Shown here: in pieces, positions 40,630 to 47,923 of the stretch
Layout of the letters: each line of letters begins with the position of its first letter
How positions within the stretch are numbered: position 1 is the stretch's first letter
Source of the DNA: SAR202 cluster bacterium
Lineage (GTDB): Bacteria > Chloroflexota > Dehalococcoidia > Lucifugimonadales > VXLM01
NCBI GenBank assembly: GCA_022448725.1
Contig: JAKUTR010000004.1
Coordinates: 1 to 64,000 of the forward strand
Direction of reading: 5' to 3'
Length of the DNA stretch: 64,000 nucleotides
The notes under the pieces: generated by a model
Databases searched by the model: none
Told to the model about the DNA's origin: nothing
The model's input: only the letters and a program-made list of their open reading frames with translations
Program-made: the position numbers and the translations under genes

Positions 40630-42036
40630 ATGCCTAACACAGAAGATATAGCTCTAATATCGCACCTTATTCGGCGTGGCGGTTTCGGCGCACCTCGGAC
40701 CGAGATCAATGAGCACGCTGAGCGTGGTTACGATGCGACTGTCGAATGGTTGTTAGACCCTGATAGTGAACCAGAGGTTGACACTGCCTCTCTCTATCGA
40801 TACCACCCAGATGCTGAGCGCCCTTTTAGGCTAGCAAACGGGATGGAATGGCTGTACCGGATGGTCACCACTCAACGCCCTCTAGAAGAGAAGATGGCAC
40901 TATTCTGGCACCAAGTGTTCGCAACTGGTGAAAACAAAGTCGAAAGCGTCTACGAGATAGCTCAACAAATCCAGATGTTCCGGGAGCATGGACTCGGTAA
41001 CTACCGTGAACTCCTATTGTCGCTAGCCCAAAACCCAGCAGTTCTCTACTGGCTCGATAACCAAGAGAATCACAAGCGGGCTCCAAATGAAAATTGGGGA
41101 CGTGAACTGATGGAACTATTTTCTATGGGCATCGGGAACTATACTGAGAAAGATGTCTATGAAGCATCCCGTGCTTTCACAGGATGGGCCTTTGATACCA
41201 AGATACACTGGCTTTTGTGGGGGCCGCACCTATGGAACTATGAGTTTCACGCCGAGGACCACGATGCGACAGACAAGACTTTATTTGGGCACTCAGGCAA
41301 CCTAGATGGGACCGACGTAATTGACCTGATTGTGCAGCAACCATCGTGCCACGTATTCATCGCAAGACATTTGTACAATTTCTTCGTAGCAGATGAGCCA
41401 CAGGTGCCAGCATGGCCAATTGAGCCCCCGCGAGACCCTGAGGCCATTCGGGACATATGTGGCGTGTTTGTCAACTCAGATTACAATCTAAAGCCAGTCT
41501 TGCGAGCCATCTTTACCTCGGACTTTTTTAAAGAGGCCTCCTTCAAGCGTGTGCGTAATCCAGCAGAAGTATTCGCAGGGACTCTACGAGTAACCGGCTC
41601 CTTCCCAGAGCCTCACCCCGGCTGGGAAAATATCTCACTGGAACCATCGTATATGGGGCAACAACTCTATGATCCCCCAAGTGTCGAAGGCTGGCACACT
41701 GGACATGAGTGGATTAATAGTGGAGCTTTCGTCCAACGAGTCAACTTTATGGCTGATCAACTGGGAGATGCTTCTCTCCCGGGAGTCCAAGACATCATAC
41801 GACGTATCGCCTCTTCCAACGGTAAGGGTATGTCGCCAGATCAACTTGTGGATGGATGTCTCGAACAGATGGGACCACTCCAAGTCAAAGATAGCACCCG
41901 ACGTGAACTCATTGATTTCGTCCAATCCGAGACAGACCAAATATCTTGGCATAATGGTGACTACGAAAAGGGAGCAGACGTAACTTGCAAGGTACTCGCC
42001 CTGATAACGGGTACACGCGAGTACCAGTTCGGCTAA
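40630..42036 (+). CDS. DUF1800 protein, copy 1
   Basis: 468 aa. The sequence matches the DUF1800 family: HLIRRGGFGAPRTEI near the N-terminus, FWHQVFATG, a strongly conserved NWGRELMELFSMGIGNYTEK around residues 156-175, FTGW, GHSGNLDGTDVID and VEGWHTGHEWINSG. The biochemical function of this family is not established; its genes commonly sit beside DUF1501 genes, as here. No signal peptide is visible. It is followed 10 nt later by a close paralogue sharing most of these motifs. GAAGGAG lies before the ATG. It is the first gene of a five-gene cluster with NHL propellers and a DUF1501 protein. Confidence 0.85.
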   Translation: MPNTEDIALISHLIRRGGFGAPRTEINEHAERGYDATVEWLLDPDSEPEVDTASLYRYHPDAERPFRLANGMEWLYRMVTTQRPLEEKMALFWHQVFATGENKVESVYEIAQQIQMFREHGLGNYRELLLSLAQNPAVLYWLDNQENHKRAPNENWGRELMELFSMGIGNYTEKDVYEASRAFTGWAFDTKIHWLLWGPHLWNYEFHAEDHDATDKTLFGHSGNLDGTDVIDLIVQQPSCHVFIARHLYNFFVADEPQVPAWPIEPPRDPEAIRDICGVFVNSDYNLKPVLRAIFTSDFFKEASFKRVRNPAEVFAGTLRVTGSFPEPHPGWENISLEPSYMGQQLYDPPSVEGWHTGHEWINSGAFVQRVNFMADQLGDASLPGVQDIIRRIASSNGKGMSPDQLVDGCLEQMGPLQVKDSTRRELIDFVQSETDQISWHNGDYEKGADVTCKVLALITGTREYQFG

Positions 42037-42046
42037 GATCCAAGAT

Positions 42047-43459
42047 ATGCCTAATCAAACGGATATTGCTCTCATTGCACACTTGATGCGACGAGCAGGG
42101 TTCGGCGCCAATCGCACAGAGTTAGAAACCTTTGCAGATCTCGGATACGAGTGGACTGTGGAATGGCTTCTTAACCCTGAGGAACAACCTGACATTAACG
42201 AGTATCAGTTATATCGGTATATGCCAATGTTGGAATACCCTCAAGTAGGCTACTCGGCACACGGTCAAGCAGAGTGGTTCTACCGCATGGTTAATAGTCA
42301 ACGCCCGCTTCAAGAAAAAATTGCATTATTCTGGCATCAGGTTTTTGCAACAGCTACTCAGAAGGTTTGGGCACACGGAGTTATAGCTCAAATCAACATG
42401 TTTCGTGAGAAGGGACTTGGTAGTCTACGTGATCTATTAGTTGCCGTTGCACAAGATCCAGCAATGATTAAATGGCTGGACAACCAAGAAAGCCACAAAC
42501 GTTCTGTTAACGAGAACTGGGGCCGTGAACTACTTGAACTTTTCTCGCTTGGTGTCGGCAACTACACAGAGACAGATGTATACGAGTGCGCCAGGGCATT
42601 CACTGGTTGGACAATAGGTGGTGACCTGAATTCCTATATCTACGCATCTATTGACTGGTCGTTTAAATACGATGCCGCTGACCATGACCGCGATAACAAA
42701 ATTTTCCTAGGCCACTCCGGGAATCTCGACGGCGATGAAATAATCGACATCCTCGTTCAACAGCCAGCGTGTCACAGTTTCATTGCGCGCCATCTGTACA
42801 ATTTTTTCGTAGCAGACGAGCCACAAGTACCCGCCTGGCAAATAGAAGAGCCTAGAGATCCCGAAGCCGTCCGTTTCCTAATGGGAAAGCTAGTTGAGTT
42901 CGATCTAGAAATTCGTCCAGTACTACGTTCGCTTTTCAATACATCGTTTTTTCAGGATTCTGTGTACCAAAAGGTTAAAAGCCCAGCTGAAGTAGTTGCT
43001 GGCACGACAAAAATAATTGGAACACCGACTCAGCCTAGCCAAGAATGGTTTGATCTCGGCAAGACTGCAACAATCTTTGGTCAAGACCTTCTGAACCCTC
43101 CGACCGTTGAGGGATGGCACACAGGGTATGAATGGATCAACAGTGGTGCTTTGGTTAGCCGAGTTAATTACACCGCCAACCAATTTAGGAGATCTAACAC
43201 TCCAGGGATTGACCTTCTCATCGACAGAATCGCCTCATCCAGTAGTTCAGTCATGAGCCCGGAGGAGCTTGTAGAAAAATGCCTAGACTTGATGGGGCCT
43301 ATATCCGTTCGGGAAAAAACCAAAACGGAACTCGTGGATCATGTGAGCAGTGAGGGCAAAATATCTTGGGCGACACCCAATGATCACTCCAGGTCTTCGC
43401 AACGTACACGTGACCTATTGGCGCTCATTGCAGGTACACGGGAATACCAGTTTAACTAA
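42047..43459 (+). CDS. DUF1800 protein, copy 2
   Basis: 470 aa, a tandem paralogue of the preceding gene and almost the same length. It repeats HLMRRAGFGANRTELE, FWHQVFATA, NWGRELLELFSLGVGNYTET, GHSGNLDGDEIID, RHLYNFFVADEPQVPAW and VEGWHTGYEWINSG. The central region after FTGW differs more (GGDLNSYIYASIDWSFKYD) and may set specificity or partner choice. Like copy 1 it lacks a signal peptide. The NHL gene starts 1 nt after its stop, so translation is likely coupled. Retention of two divergent copies suggests a heteromeric pair. Confidence 0.85.
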   Translation: MPNQTDIALIAHLMRRAGFGANRTELETFADLGYEWTVEWLLNPEEQPDINEYQLYRYMPMLEYPQVGYSAHGQAEWFYRMVNSQRPLQEKIALFWHQVFATATQKVWAHGVIAQINMFREKGLGSLRDLLVAVAQDPAMIKWLDNQESHKRSVNENWGRELLELFSLGVGNYTETDVYECARAFTGWTIGGDLNSYIYASIDWSFKYDAADHDRDNKIFLGHSGNLDGDEIIDILVQQPACHSFIARHLYNFFVADEPQVPAWQIEEPRDPEAVRFLMGKLVEFDLEIRPVLRSLFNTSFFQDSVYQKVKSPAEVVAGTTKIIGTPTQPSQEWFDLGKTATIFGQDLLNPPTVEGWHTGYEWINSGALVSRVNYTANQFRRSNTPGIDLLIDRIASSSSSVMSPEELVEKCLDLMGPISVREKTKTELVDHVSSEGKISWATPNDHSRSSQRTRDLLALIAGTREYQFN

Positions 43460-43460
43460 T

Positions 43461-44507
43461 ATGCTCATAACCTACGGCGGCGGAAAAGCCTGGAATTTTA
43501 GCCACTCTCTGGGACGACCCACTGGGGAGCACAATGGTACAACCGGTGGATTCATGAATCCTGTAAGTATCGCAGTTGCTGACGAGAATAATCTATTCGT
43601 ACTCAATCGTGGCTGGGGAACTCTTTTAATTCAGGATAGAGCACACGATGCTGGTTGCCGGATTGGTAAAATGACAATTGACGAATACCACTTTGGAGAC
43701 TTCGCTAGGGGCGAATTCGTCTGGCCAGTTGGATTGGCTATCTCTGCAGACGGTAATCTATACGTGAGCGACGAAGCTGACCATAAAATAGCCTGGCTAC
43801 CCCCTGACAGAATAGTACCTTTCCCTGAAAATATTCCAACTGGAGAGAGGCTTGGAGAGTGGGGAGCACTCGGGTGTGCTGAAGGCCAAATCAACGCACC
43901 AGCGGGCATTGAATTCGACCAACATGATGACCTATACGTGGTGGATAGTGGTAACAACCGTGTCCAGAAATTTACTAAACATGGTGACTTTCTAATGACT
44001 TGGGGAACCGCCGGCACCGGTAACGGCGAATTCGATCACCCTTGGGGCATAACGATTGACCATCAAGGATTCATATACGTTGCAGACTGGGGTAATAACC
44101 GAATCCAAAAGTTCACTCCTAGCGGTGAATTTGTGATGTGTATTGGTGACGGGTATGAACTTGACCACCCGGCTGACGTAGCTGTCGACAGCGAGGGTGA
44201 CGTCTACGTCGCTGATTGGGGCAATAAACGTGTACAAATCTTTGAAAGTGATGGAAACCTACTTGCATCCTTAAGCGGTGATGCTAGTGAATTCTCTAAA
44301 GCTCAAGAGTACGTAATTACCAGAGATAATGCTAAGCAAAGCTTCGCAATGAATACTAACCACCCCGCCGTAACAAACATGGGGCGGTTTGGACGGGTTA
44401 CAGGCGTCGAAGTTACAACAGACGATCGAATCATCGCGACAGACAGCCGGGGTAGGCTACAGGTGTATGACAAGGACAAGCAATTTGTCCTTATCCCGCC
44501 ACCTTGA
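43461..44507 (+). CDS. NHL-repeat propeller, copy 1
   Basis: 348 aa, probably a six-bladed propeller. It starts with the short YGGGKAWNFSHSLGRPTGEH segment and then NHL blades such as LYVVDSGNNRVQKFTKHG, IYVADWGNNRIQKFTPSG and VYVADWGNKRVQIFESDG. The start is at 43461, 1 nt after the DUF1800 stop; the longer frame would overlap that gene. There is no signal peptide, so it should be cytosolic. A near-identical architecture recurs in the last gene of the cluster. Function unknown; NHL propellers often act as binding scaffolds. Confidence 0.8.
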   Translation: MLITYGGGKAWNFSHSLGRPTGEHNGTTGGFMNPVSIAVADENNLFVLNRGWGTLLIQDRAHDAGCRIGKMTIDEYHFGDFARGEFVWPVGLAISADGNLYVSDEADHKIAWLPPDRIVPFPENIPTGERLGEWGALGCAEGQINAPAGIEFDQHDDLYVVDSGNNRVQKFTKHGDFLMTWGTAGTGNGEFDHPWGITIDHQGFIYVADWGNNRIQKFTPSGEFVMCIGDGYELDHPADVAVDSEGDVYVADWGNKRVQIFESDGNLLASLSGDASEFSKAQEYVITRDNAKQSFAMNTNHPAVTNMGRFGRVTGVEVTTDDRIIATDSRGRLQVYDKDKQFVLIPPP

Positions 44508-44566
44508 TCCTCACATACGGATACATATGAATTCTGATATGATCCTTAGACTCTCAGGAGACGCGT

Positions 44567-45706
44567 ATGGACACTAAAATGAATGGGGACGCGCCTGTCC
44601 TCGTGGTACTACAGTTAACTGGTGGGAATGACTATCTCAACACCGTAGTCCCCTACTCGAATGCCCTTTATTACGATAACCGATCATCCCTTGGAATCCC
44701 AGAAGAAGACGTAATGAAGATTGATGATACGGTCGGCCTCAATCCCGCGATGGGTCCTTTGAAAGATGTGTACGATCGCGGAGACATGTCCATTATCCAC
44801 GGCGTAGGTTTCGAGAACTCGACCCGCTCGCACTTCCGTGCCATGGACATCTGGCACACCGCAGAGCCTGATAAAGTCAGCATGGAAGGATGGCTAGGAC
44901 GAACTGTCCGAGACCTCGATCCTGAAGGGGAAAATCCTGTAACAGCGGTGAACGTCGGCCAAGGGTTACCGCGTGCTATGGTTGCACCCGGAGTCTCAGT
45001 TGCATCAGTAGCGGACCTTTCAACCTATGGACTGCTAACTGGGGTTGAAGAACGGCAACTCCGCGAGAAAATGCTAGATCGGTTTGCAAACATGTACACC
45101 CCAGCCATTGGCTCTGGCCCTGTTATGGATTACTTGGCACAAACAGGTCTTGATGCACTCAAGGGTGCGGATATGCTAAAGGATGCACCGTTGGCGTACG
45201 AGTCTTCTATCGAATACGGAAACACCCCTCTAGCTGGCAAACTCCGTGACATTGCTAAGATTCATACAGCTAACTTGGGCACACGCGTGCTGTACGCTGA
45301 GCATGGCGGTTATGATACTCACGCTGCTCAAGGTCCAAACCACCCAAAGCTTTGGAGCGATGTTGCCGGTGCAGTTAATGACTTCTGGGCTGACTTGAAA
45401 GAGCATGATTCTGACCAGAACGTAGTGATGTTTATTTTCACTGAGTTCGGAAGACGCGTGAAAGAGAACGGGACTGGAACCGATCATGGAGCTGGGGGCG
45501 TTGCATTCACCCTTGGACCAAGTGTCAAGGGAGGACAATATAACGACTACCCATCACTCGCTCCTGAGGATCTCCGAGAGGGGGATCTTGCCCCTAATCA
45601 GGACTTCCGCGGCGTCTACTCCACTCTAATTGAAGATTGGTTTGGCCTCGACGCAAAACCTATCGTTGAAGGAACGTTTGAAAAGCCTGACCTTATACAT
45701 AAATAA
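44567..45706 (+). CDS. DUF1501 protein
   Basis: 379 aa of DUF1501, a family with an alkaline-phosphatase-like fold. Visible signatures are VLVVLQLTGGNDYLNTVVPY at the N-terminus, SIIHGVGFENSTRSHFRAMDIW (the usual family reads like N-x-S-R-S-H-F), YDTHAAQ, and VVMFIFTEFGRRVKENGTGTDHG with the conserved DHG near the C-terminus. Most DUF1501 proteins carry a Tat signal peptide before the GGND region; this one starts only about 15 residues before it and has none. Its partner genes are the two DUF1800 copies upstream. GGAG lies before the ATG. Confidence 0.87.
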   Translation: MDTKMNGDAPVLVVLQLTGGNDYLNTVVPYSNALYYDNRSSLGIPEEDVMKIDDTVGLNPAMGPLKDVYDRGDMSIIHGVGFENSTRSHFRAMDIWHTAEPDKVSMEGWLGRTVRDLDPEGENPVTAVNVGQGLPRAMVAPGVSVASVADLSTYGLLTGVEERQLREKMLDRFANMYTPAIGSGPVMDYLAQTGLDALKGADMLKDAPLAYESSIEYGNTPLAGKLRDIAKIHTANLGTRVLYAEHGGYDTHAAQGPNHPKLWSDVAGAVNDFWADLKEHDSDQNVVMFIFTEFGRRVKENGTGTDHGAGGVAFTLGPSVKGGQYNDYPSLAPEDLREGDLAPNQDFRGVYSTLIEDWFGLDAKPIVEGTFEKPDLIHK

Positions 45707-45745
45707 CACACGCTACCCTAGTCAATAACACAACAAGCAACATTT

Positions 45746-46792
45746 ATGATCACCACCACAGCCGCAGGTCGTACGTGGCACTTTGACCGGTCCCTTGGAC
45801 GCCCCACTAATGAGCACAATGGAACCGTCGGAGGCTACCGTCACCCCACAGACCTCTGCATCACCAATGATGACATCTTATTTGTACTCAGTCGCGGACA
45901 TAACAGCCAAACCGGCACACCTGACAATGGCCGGATCGGGAAAACTACATTTGAGGAACATCACCTTGGCGATTTCGCGCGGCAAGAGTTCACCTGGCCA
46001 GCAGGGATTGCGCTTGACAGCGACGGATGGGTATACGTTTCGGACGAATTCGAAAATATAATCCGCAAGTTCGATCCGGATAAGACCCTGCCTTATCCAG
46101 ACGCTGACCCTGACAATGAGGCCGTCGCAAAATGGGGATCTACGGGCACTGACGAGGGTATGCTAAATGGCCCTAGTGGTATTCATTTTGATAGTGAAGA
46201 TACCCTTTTCGTTGTCGATAGCAGAAACGACCGAGTACAACAATTCACTAAAGATGGAGAATTCCTTTCGTCGTTTGGACATTCCGGCACTGGTCACGGC
46301 GAATTCAGCCGACCGTGGGGGATCACGATTGACAACAACGGGGATATCTACATCGCAGATTGGGGTAATCATCGTGTTCAGAAGTTCTCTCCTGAAGGTA
46401 AATTTCTGATGACCTTTGGGACCGAGTTTGGGGGAGAGCTAAACAATCCTGCAAATGTCGCCGTTGACAGTGAAGGTGATGTATATGTGACCGACTGGGG
46501 TAATCGGCGCGTGCAAGTATATGAGCCAACCGGGGATGTGCTCACAGCCTTCTATGGGGATGCAACAAGCTTATCGAAGGCGGGGGAGTATATCATTCGG
46601 CGAGACCCTGGCACTATAAAGGCATACCGCCAAGTCAAGGACTACACGGAAATGGGACGATTCATGCGACCAACTGGGATTGAAATAGATAAAAATAATC
46701 ACATAATTGTCGCTGATTCCTGTGGGCGGCTCCAAGTCTATGCGAAAGACTCTGGATACGTCGAACCAGAAGTCAAACTAGAACTCGAGTAA
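45746..46792 (+). CDS. NHL-repeat propeller, copy 2
   Basis: 348 aa, identical in length to the first NHL copy and clearly its paralogue. It begins TAAGRTWHFDRSLGRPTNEH (copy 1 has the same LGRPTxEHNGTxGG core), with blades such as LFVVDSRNDRVQQFTKDG and IYIADWGNHRVQKFSPEG. The final segment MGRFMRPTGIEIDKNNHII also matches copy 1. It has no signal peptide. As the last gene of the cluster it lies 39 nt after DUF1501. A separate, non-redundant role is suggested by one copy per DUF1800/DUF1501 half of the cluster. Confidence 0.8.
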   Translation: MITTTAAGRTWHFDRSLGRPTNEHNGTVGGYRHPTDLCITNDDILFVLSRGHNSQTGTPDNGRIGKTTFEEHHLGDFARQEFTWPAGIALDSDGWVYVSDEFENIIRKFDPDKTLPYPDADPDNEAVAKWGSTGTDEGMLNGPSGIHFDSEDTLFVVDSRNDRVQQFTKDGEFLSSFGHSGTGHGEFSRPWGITIDNNGDIYIADWGNHRVQKFSPEGKFLMTFGTEFGGELNNPANVAVDSEGDVYVTDWGNRRVQVYEPTGDVLTAFYGDATSLSKAGEYIIRRDPGTIKAYRQVKDYTEMGRFMRPTGIEIDKNNHIIVADSCGRLQVYAKDSGYVEPEVKLELE

Positions 46793-46867: not shown

Positions 46868-47923
46868 ATGTCAACTGTACGGTTAGGCATTGTTGGATGC
46901 GGATCCATATTCCCGCTAAACGCCAACGGCTACGCCACCGATAATCGTTGTGAGATCGTTGCCGTTTGCGATCCGATCAAAGAACGCGCTGAGCGAAAAG
47001 CTACTCAGCTTGGTATCGCTCCTACTGTATACACGAACTACGAAGATTTTCTTGCGGACGATACAATAGACGCTATTGAAATTCTCACCCCAACGCAGTT
47101 TCATGCCGAGCAAATAATCGCCGGATTAAAAGCTGGTAAGCACGTATCGTGCCAAAAACCCCTGGCAACAGATATGGAAGAAGCAGACCATATCGTTGAC
47201 GCCGCCAATAAAGCAAAAACCATTTTCCGTGTCACGGAAAATTTCCTCTACTATCCCCCCATTATTAAAGCAAAAGAGTTGATTGATTGCGGTGTTATAG
47301 GTGACCCGAACCTTATCCGCATTCGCACAATACTAGGAAGCGAGACCAATCATGGGACTGAGTGGCTCCGAGAACCAGGCGCGTTAACATGGCGCCGTGT
47401 CGCTAATACACTCCCGGGGGGAATAGTGTTTGACCATGGGGTCCAATCCTACGCAACTCAGATGTGGTGGGTAGGAGACACGGATCAGTTATTCAGAATT
47501 GTCAATACAACTAACGACTTCCATATTGAAGCTCCCGCTGCTACAACTTGGAAGTTCCGTGACCGTACTTGTATTGGAATCTTTGATTACGCGCTTACGA
47601 ACCAGATGACTATTAAGAGCAAATACTACGCCATGGACGAGTTTTTTGAGATATATGGCCCGAAAGGCTCCATCATGATCACCCGATGTACCGGGGAGGT
47701 CCTTGATATGCCGCCACTGATGGTAGTCACAGAGGAAGGAAACAAGGAGATTGAGGTAGCGCACGACTGGATAGAAGGTTTCAATGGAGCAGCACGAGAC
47801 TTTATAGACGGAATTGTGACTGGTGGTCAACCTATGATGGATGCGGAAAGCGCAAGAACGGCGCTCCGCGCTGCACTAGCCGTCTATGAGTCATCCAATT
47901 CAGGATTACCAGTACAACTCTAA
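46868..47923 (+). CDS. Gfo/Idh/MocA-family oxidoreductase
   Basis: 351 aa. Rossmann motif LGIVGCGSIFPLNANGY, conserved SCQKPLATDMEEAD at about 95-108, and a C-terminal domain with LPGGIVFDHGVQSYATQMWW, GPKGSIMIT and WIEGFNGAARDFIDGIVTGG. The CQKP in place of the usual CEKP at the conserved Lys motif is a conservative change. GGAG lies 6 nt before the ATG. It follows the NHL/DUF cluster by 75 nt on the same strand and may be co-transcribed. The substrate is unknown. Confidence 0.82.
   Translation: MSTVRLGIVGCGSIFPLNANGYATDNRCEIVAVCDPIKERAERKATQLGIAPTVYTNYEDFLADDTIDAIEILTPTQFHAEQIIAGLKAGKHVSCQKPLATDMEEADHIVDAANKAKTIFRVTENFLYYPPIIKAKELIDCGVIGDPNLIRIRTILGSETNHGTEWLREPGALTWRRVANTLPGGIVFDHGVQSYATQMWWVGDTDQLFRIVNTTNDFHIEAPAATTWKFRDRTCIGIFDYALTNQMTIKSKYYAMDEFFEIYGPKGSIMITRCTGEVLDMPPLMVVTEEGNKEIEVAHDWIEGFNGAARDFIDGIVTGGQPMMDAESARTALRAALAVYESSNSGLPVQL

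Follow-up and report, generated by a model that had tools for sequence, protein, structure and literature searches.

The five-gene locus

Five tightly spaced genes, all intact and all on the forward strand, lie between positions 40,630 and 46,792 of the window, a 64,000-nucleotide stretch of contig JAKUTR010000004.1 (C34) from the 2.09 Mb, 75-contig draft genome of a SAR202 cluster bacterium (GCA_022448725.1). They encode two DUF1800 proteins, two NHL β-propellers and a single DUF1501 protein (Table 1); to our knowledge, DUF1800 and DUF1501 are widespread families whose role is not established. The conserved entity in relatives is a smaller unit of three genes, usually DUF1800-DUF1501-NHL, which is repeated within genomes.

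The composition of the cluster, its close spacing (gaps of 1 to 60 bp) and the identical length of the two propellers all agree with an earlier account made from the letters alone (the sequence-only reading). DUF1800a and DUF1800b share 54% identity and NHLa and NHLb 51%. Each protein scored well above the Pfam gathering cut-off of its family: 26.1 bits for PF08811, of which the DUF1800 proteins cover profile positions 1-418/419; 27 bits for PF07394, also matched by all 58 members of our DUF1501 alignment A2; and 20 bits for PF01436, with four and five NHL repeats recognized in NHLa and NHLb, respectively. A longer, GTG-initiated open reading frame (ORF) for NHLa overlaps DUF1800b; the ATG start used here comes after the DUF1800b stop codon.

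Table 1. Genes and candidate active-site codons at the locus, in window coordinates.
Feature	Coordinates	Strand	Description	Evidence
DUF1800a	40630..42036	+	468 aa, leaderless	PF08811, E=1.9e-99, 334 bits
DUF1800b	42047..43459	+	470 aa, leaderless, helical	PF08811, E=1.7e-93, 315 bits; AlphaFold pLDDT (predicted local distance difference test) 93.5
NHLa	43461..44507	+	348 aa from ATG, NHL β-propeller, leaderless	PF01436, E=2e-36, 123 bits
DUF1501	44567..45706	+	379 aa, leaderless; putative hydrolase like alkaline phosphatase (AP), nucleotide pyrophosphatase/phosphodiesterase (NPP) and sulfatases	PF07394, E=6.7e-22, 78.6 bits; AlphaFold pLDDT 89.3
T86-RSHFR-91 codons of DUF1501	44825..44842	+	putative nucleophile Ser88 with leaderless-specific R87 and R91	residue conservation
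NHLb	45746..46792	+	348 aa, NHL β-propeller, leaderless	PF01436, E=1.2e-38, 130 bits
Gfo/Idh/MocA oxidoreductase	46868..47923	+	75 bp downstream of NHLb	PF01408, E=2.3e-26

A three-gene unit that evolves together

Sixty genomes, including that of the window, were searched; DUF1501 was found in 37 and DUF1800 in 39, with at least five DUF1800 copies in 23 genomes and a maximum of 18 in one. One hundred neighbourhoods from 20 relatives and five other loci of the window's own genome were then read and grouped as same-strand clusters; because these loci had been picked for holding DUF1501 or DUF1800, some being truncated by contig ends, the fractions below describe clusters and not genomes. Among 119 leaderless clusters, DUF1800-DUF1501-NHL was the commonest form (36), followed by DUF1800-NHL (15), DUF1501 alone (13), DUF1501-DUF1800-NHL (10) and rarer forms, including DUF1501-(DUF1800-NHL)x2 (6) and DUF1800-DUF1800-DUF1501-NHL (3, one apparently frame-broken, L079). 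The sequence-only reading had proposed a search for the five-gene order in relatives as its own test, and that order was not conserved: it occurred once in the 119 clusters, at the window itself, and in none of the 100 neighbourhoods from relatives or the 80 named loci described next, ruling it out as a conserved unit.

These named loci are the best 80 obtained when GTDB contigs were scanned with the alignment of leaderless DUF1501 proteins. All three genes stood together in 73, in the order DUF1800-DUF1501-NHL in 61, and no locus received a call for a twin-arginine translocation (Tat) signal; as the loci were fetched by DUF1501 alone, the co-occurrence of the three families is not due to chance. 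The loci belong mainly to Dehalococcoidia and SAR202; records labelled Caldilineaceae, 'Ca. Entotheonella', Poribacteria, Latescibacteria and Acetobacteraceae also fall inside the leaderless tree. Tree placement suggests that leaderless modules have spread horizontally between phyla, the alternative being mis-binned single contigs. Seven modules with the latter four labels (L222, L255, L262, L259, L268, L266 and L282) nest among Chloroflexota sequences. Identical DUF1501 and DUF1800 proteins in matching layout were also seen in two genomes of different families (L109, on the G013 chromosome, and L145, on the 14.4 kb contig G025:C6), reflecting either a mis-binned contig or a very recent transfer.

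Co-divergence was measured on 52 modules that combine single DUF1800 and DUF1501 genes with one or more NHL genes; these gave 73 within-genome paralogous module pairs. Within-genome distances were correlated for DUF1800/DUF1501 (r=0.84), DUF1800/NHL (r=0.71) and DUF1501/NHL (r=0.64), and no observed value was matched in 2000 shuffles of the labels within genomes. The co-divergence of the three proteins indicates that the operon has been duplicated, and maintained, as a whole.

The window departs from this pattern in part. Its two DUF1800 proteins are not sister copies in the tree; DUF1800a groups (support 100) with a companionless copy on a short contig of a same-genus genome (L083), and DUF1800b forms a long branch within the 10-row clade that also holds DUF1800a. 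Orthologues of the window DUF1501 in three same-genus genomes (76-78% identity) lie in a DUF1501-NHL-NHL cluster without DUF1800. Since same-genus orthologues of its genes lie dispersed, the five-gene set is probably a local arrangement of the window lineage. Another locus of the same genome (L014:3477-11891, on contig C75) reads DUF1501-DUF1800-NHL-DUF1800-NHL, after which come a third NHL-like gene and an amidohydrolase; clusters of this 2:1:2 type recur in L082, L087, L095, L152, L172, L275 and L284, which retain two old DUF1800 lineages next to each other. Being conserved across families, the C75-type order is a better candidate for a heteromer than the window order.

Missing leaders and predicted folds

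The sequence-only reading had claimed that none of the five proteins has a signal peptide, and rule-based tests (open codons, twin-arginine (RR) pairs and hydrophobicity, not SignalP) bear this out. In-frame stops leave just 8 open codons upstream of DUF1800a, DUF1501 and NHLb and 13 upstream of DUF1800b, so that a hidden leader reached from an upstream start is impossible for four of the five genes; NHLa has 38 open codons upstream, with no hydrophobic stretch among them. RR pairs occur only within the DUF1800 domain (HLxRRxGFG), and no transmembrane-like segment was found in the five proteins (maximum Kyte-Doolittle value 1.23 over 19-residue windows). Across the larger set of leaderless genes, the domain is preceded by fewer than 25 open codons in 70 of 100 DUF1800, 50 of 88 DUF1501 and 72 of 111 NHL genes; in the rest, a hydrophobic stretch precedes the domain in five DUF1800 and two DUF1501 genes, mostly 5' of likely start codons. 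Apparent Tat hits in seven leaderless DUF1501 proteins (L080, L086, L093, L102, L130, L135 and L140) were rejected as the domain's first β-strand (e.g. VLVIVQL) after a chance RR.

The window's own genome encodes TatC and holds seven DUF1800 and five DUF1501 genes, of which only one pair, on contig C18 (L013), carries Tat leaders; both of its proteins do (DRRAFL and SRRNFL, with a hydrophobic stretch after each). The copies on C75, C15, C11, C7 and the window start directly at the domain, several of them with NHL partners. In the DUF1800 and DUF1501 trees alike, leaderless and Tat-signalled proteins split with support 100, and a second DUF1501 tree repeated the separation. Tat-exported pairs (COG5267/COG4102; e.g. 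L013 and the Chloroflexota loci L286-L305) comprise the same two families in the same linkage, and share invariant residues with the window: S88, H89, F90, D250, H252, E293-FGRR and D306-H307-G of DUF1501, and NENxxRE and others of DUF1800. They differ from the leaderless form in their leaders, in their lack of an adjacent NHL gene, in usually being present in one or few copies and in forming a separate clade; the window DUF1501, with its 8 open codons, falls outside that clade. All 24 Chloroflexota exported pairs are DUF1800-DUF1501, and none is adjoined by an NHL gene (up to ~10 kb read on each side; one NHL gene lies ~5 kb off, at L302).

The DUF1800-DUF1501 linkage and the Tat leader of DUF1501 have been described previously (PMC5122149). 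In five exported pairs (L286, L287, L289, L290 and L296), the open frame of DUF1800 is too short for a leader and DUF1501 bears an RR leader, which suggests that DUF1800 is carried out by DUF1501 as a candidate Tat hitchhiker, as is known for other complexes (PMC4273604); the two proteins would therefore bind before export. Tandem DUF1501 genes at L155 (G056:C7:55961-60316) and G049:C299 score up to 378 bits to Pfam, far above others in the order; an RR motif is present at L155, and these genes could belong to another DUF1501 subfamily or lie on a foreign contig.

The phosphatase-like character that the sequence-only reading gave to DUF1501 fits the predicted structure. The AlphaFold model matches Xac NPP (7mw8; Z 19.4, root-mean-square deviation 3.1, 242 residues), the phosphatase PafA (Z 18.1) and choline sulfatase (Z 16.5), placing it in the AP superfamily fold at Z 16-19 over ~240 residues, although sequence identity to these proteins is 10-13%. 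Sulfatases were also the best Foldseek matches (E 3e-6), with LtaS and MCR-1 lower in the list. A sequence-profile search of the PDB with DUF1501 gave no match even at E 10, and the family does not belong to the Type I sulfatases (PF00884), which only four of the 58 A2 members match, weakly (best E=0.0019). Ser88 is probably the nucleophile, judging from the topology of the model, where it lies at the beginning of the helix that follows strand two, the position at which the superfamily carries its own. The Ser-His-Phe motif is invariant in exported and leaderless forms, and D250, H252, D306 and H307 are likewise retained in both; D22 is invariant in A2 and E293 is also conserved. R87 and R91, present at 99-100% in leaderless proteins only, flank this motif and would suit an anionic substrate.

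The model of DUF1800b is confident, and conserved Glu, His, Asn and Arg motifs (e.g. NENxxRELxELF) run through the family, with E90, K91, H97, N155-E156-N157, R160, E161, E164 and H213 among the invariant residues. Foldseek returned no PDB match at E<=0.001; EF-hand-like bundles (Z 6) and the RsaA N-domain (Z 5.2) were within noise for a helical protein, and no fold relative is claimed. NHLa and NHLb have the propeller repeats of the ScyF/ScyE proteins of scytonemin clusters but fall below the NCBIfam cut-offs (144 and 229 bits against 350 for ScyF, NF035926; 48-51 against 80 for ScyE), and the equivalog threshold rules out identity with ScyF.

Proposed function of the module

We reasoned that the locus is one copy, rearranged locally, of a DUF1800-DUF1501-NHL operon without leaders. 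The operon would encode a cytosolic hydrolase module that diversified as whole operons were duplicated and is probably catabolic; we put the probability of this explanation at about 0.5. Action of the leaderless proteins in the cytosol, as a complex, is the leading reading because signals are missing and the proteins co-diverge. DUF1501 would be a metal-dependent hydrolase of the AP/NPP/sulfatase superfamily, acting on a phosphate, phosphodiester or sulfate ester, probably via Ser88; DUF1800 would be its regular helical partner, and the propeller, found beside the leaderless lineage only, a docking or substrate-binding subunit. Canonical pairs are exported through Tat; the leaderless lineage lacks leaders and carries the propeller. 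Its whole operon was copied many times, each copy presumably for another substrate, matching the large catabolic paralogue sets of SAR202; at the window, an extra DUF1800 and an extra NHL gene give two of each beside the single DUF1501.

Copy numbers across the 60 genomes, with relatedness ignored, are consistent with such a role: DUF1800 tracked DUF1501 (rho 0.93), sulfatases (0.68, or 0.60 once genome size is taken into account) and enolase-superfamily genes (0.59, or 0.48 with the same adjustment), and did not track flavin mononucleotide (FMN) monooxygenases (0.17). We take COG3391 to be NHL/YncE-like, COG4102 to be DUF1501 and COG5267 to be DUF1800. Named as abundant, uncharacterised SAR202 COGs in the correlation matrix of Saw et al. 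2020 (PMC6946804), the three almost certainly correspond to the families of the window operon, although that study is without the operon structure, the missing signals, the co-divergence and the spread to other taxa. SAR202 enolase and sulfatase paralogues have been tied to the use of sugars and sulfated compounds (PMC6946804, PMC10444878). In the open-access literature, the scope of our search (subscription papers and preprints lay outside it), we found no description of a DUF1800-DUF1501-NHL operon or of absent leaders.

Several observations weigh against this explanation. Six genomes with at least two DUF1800 genes have no sulfatase match, and the correlations take no account of relatedness. 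The DUF1501-only and DUF1800-NHL-only clusters imply that the three genes need not be encoded together, and, following one strand of DUF1501, E293-F294 stands in the place usually taken by Asp-His, so that its metal site may be altered. In a separate observation, contig C11 of the window's own genome (L016:11512-13374) carries a DUF1800-NHL pair that lacks DUF1501 and lies directly 3' of a leaderless 493-aa sulfatase and a fragment of 116 aa resembling a partial duplicate of the sulfatase N-terminus; the sulfatase may stand in for DUF1501 there.

The strongest rival, unlikely but well short of dismissal, is linkage without a complex, in which three stand-alone proteins would serve one pathway from a co-inherited operon. 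Incomplete clusters are indeed common, and fusions between the three families were absent among the ORFs examined; however, co-divergence is strongest between DUF1800 and DUF1501, and the exported pairs in which DUF1800 seems to hitchhike point to binding. It is improbable that the module serves to synthesize or alter a polymer or surface compound (as a transferase or in glycan editing) rather than to break down nutrients. Proteobacteria do have chitin synthase/epimerase/DUF1800/DUF1501 operons (PMC5122149), and the transferases LtaS and MCR-1 are among the structural matches of DUF1501, but no glycosyltransferase recurs beside leaderless modules, and the massive paralogy and the sulfatase/enolase correlation suit catabolism better. 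Slightly less probable still is export without signals of their own, through an unlinked Tat-signalled partner or a non-classical route, with action at the surface like the canonical pair; Tat hitchhiking and a Tat pathway in the genome would allow this, but no member of the leaderless modules has a leader in any of the three families across many genomes, and the genome's own exported pair is only distantly related to the leaderless copies. Least probable are the obligate heteromers of the sequence-only reading, two different DUF1800 proteins and two different propellers around one DUF1501, to which the 2:1:2 content of the window and C75 loci and the paired old DUF1800 lineages of the C75 type lend themselves, but the window arrangement stands alone, and the usual module contains a single gene per family (36 of 119 clusters; 61 of the best 80 named loci), so that pairing is not a general feature. 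From that model, the cytosolic complex survives, being consistent with the missing signals and with three families evolving as one unit; the two-plus-two pairing does not hold as a rule.

Returning to the cytosolic hydrolase module, we propose more tentatively that it represents a whole three-subunit class, in which a Tat-exported pair lost its leaders, gained a propeller, radiated into many substrate-specific SAR202 operons and spread to other phyla, some of them sponge-associated. Present in SAR202-type genomes with as many as 18 DUF1800 copies each, the leaderless operon offers a practical entry to DUF1800/DUF1501 biochemistry, as a soluble three-part version for which the exported pair of the same genome is a natural internal control. 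SAR202 strains are now cultured (PMC10444878), so the role of an abundant paralogue family in ocean carbon turnover becomes testable.

The 74 operonic neighbours of the modules vary and point to no pathway. No fourth conserved gene emerged among them; the commonest neighbour was an amidohydrolase (6 of 74), mainly with the DUF1501-DUF1800-NHL-DUF1800-NHL type. The Gfo/Idh/MocA gene downstream of NHLb is a possible operon member outside the conserved module, its family accounting for two of the 74. Upstream of the window cluster, the opposite strand carries a luciferase-like monooxygenase, a tRNA-Pro and a second MocA gene.

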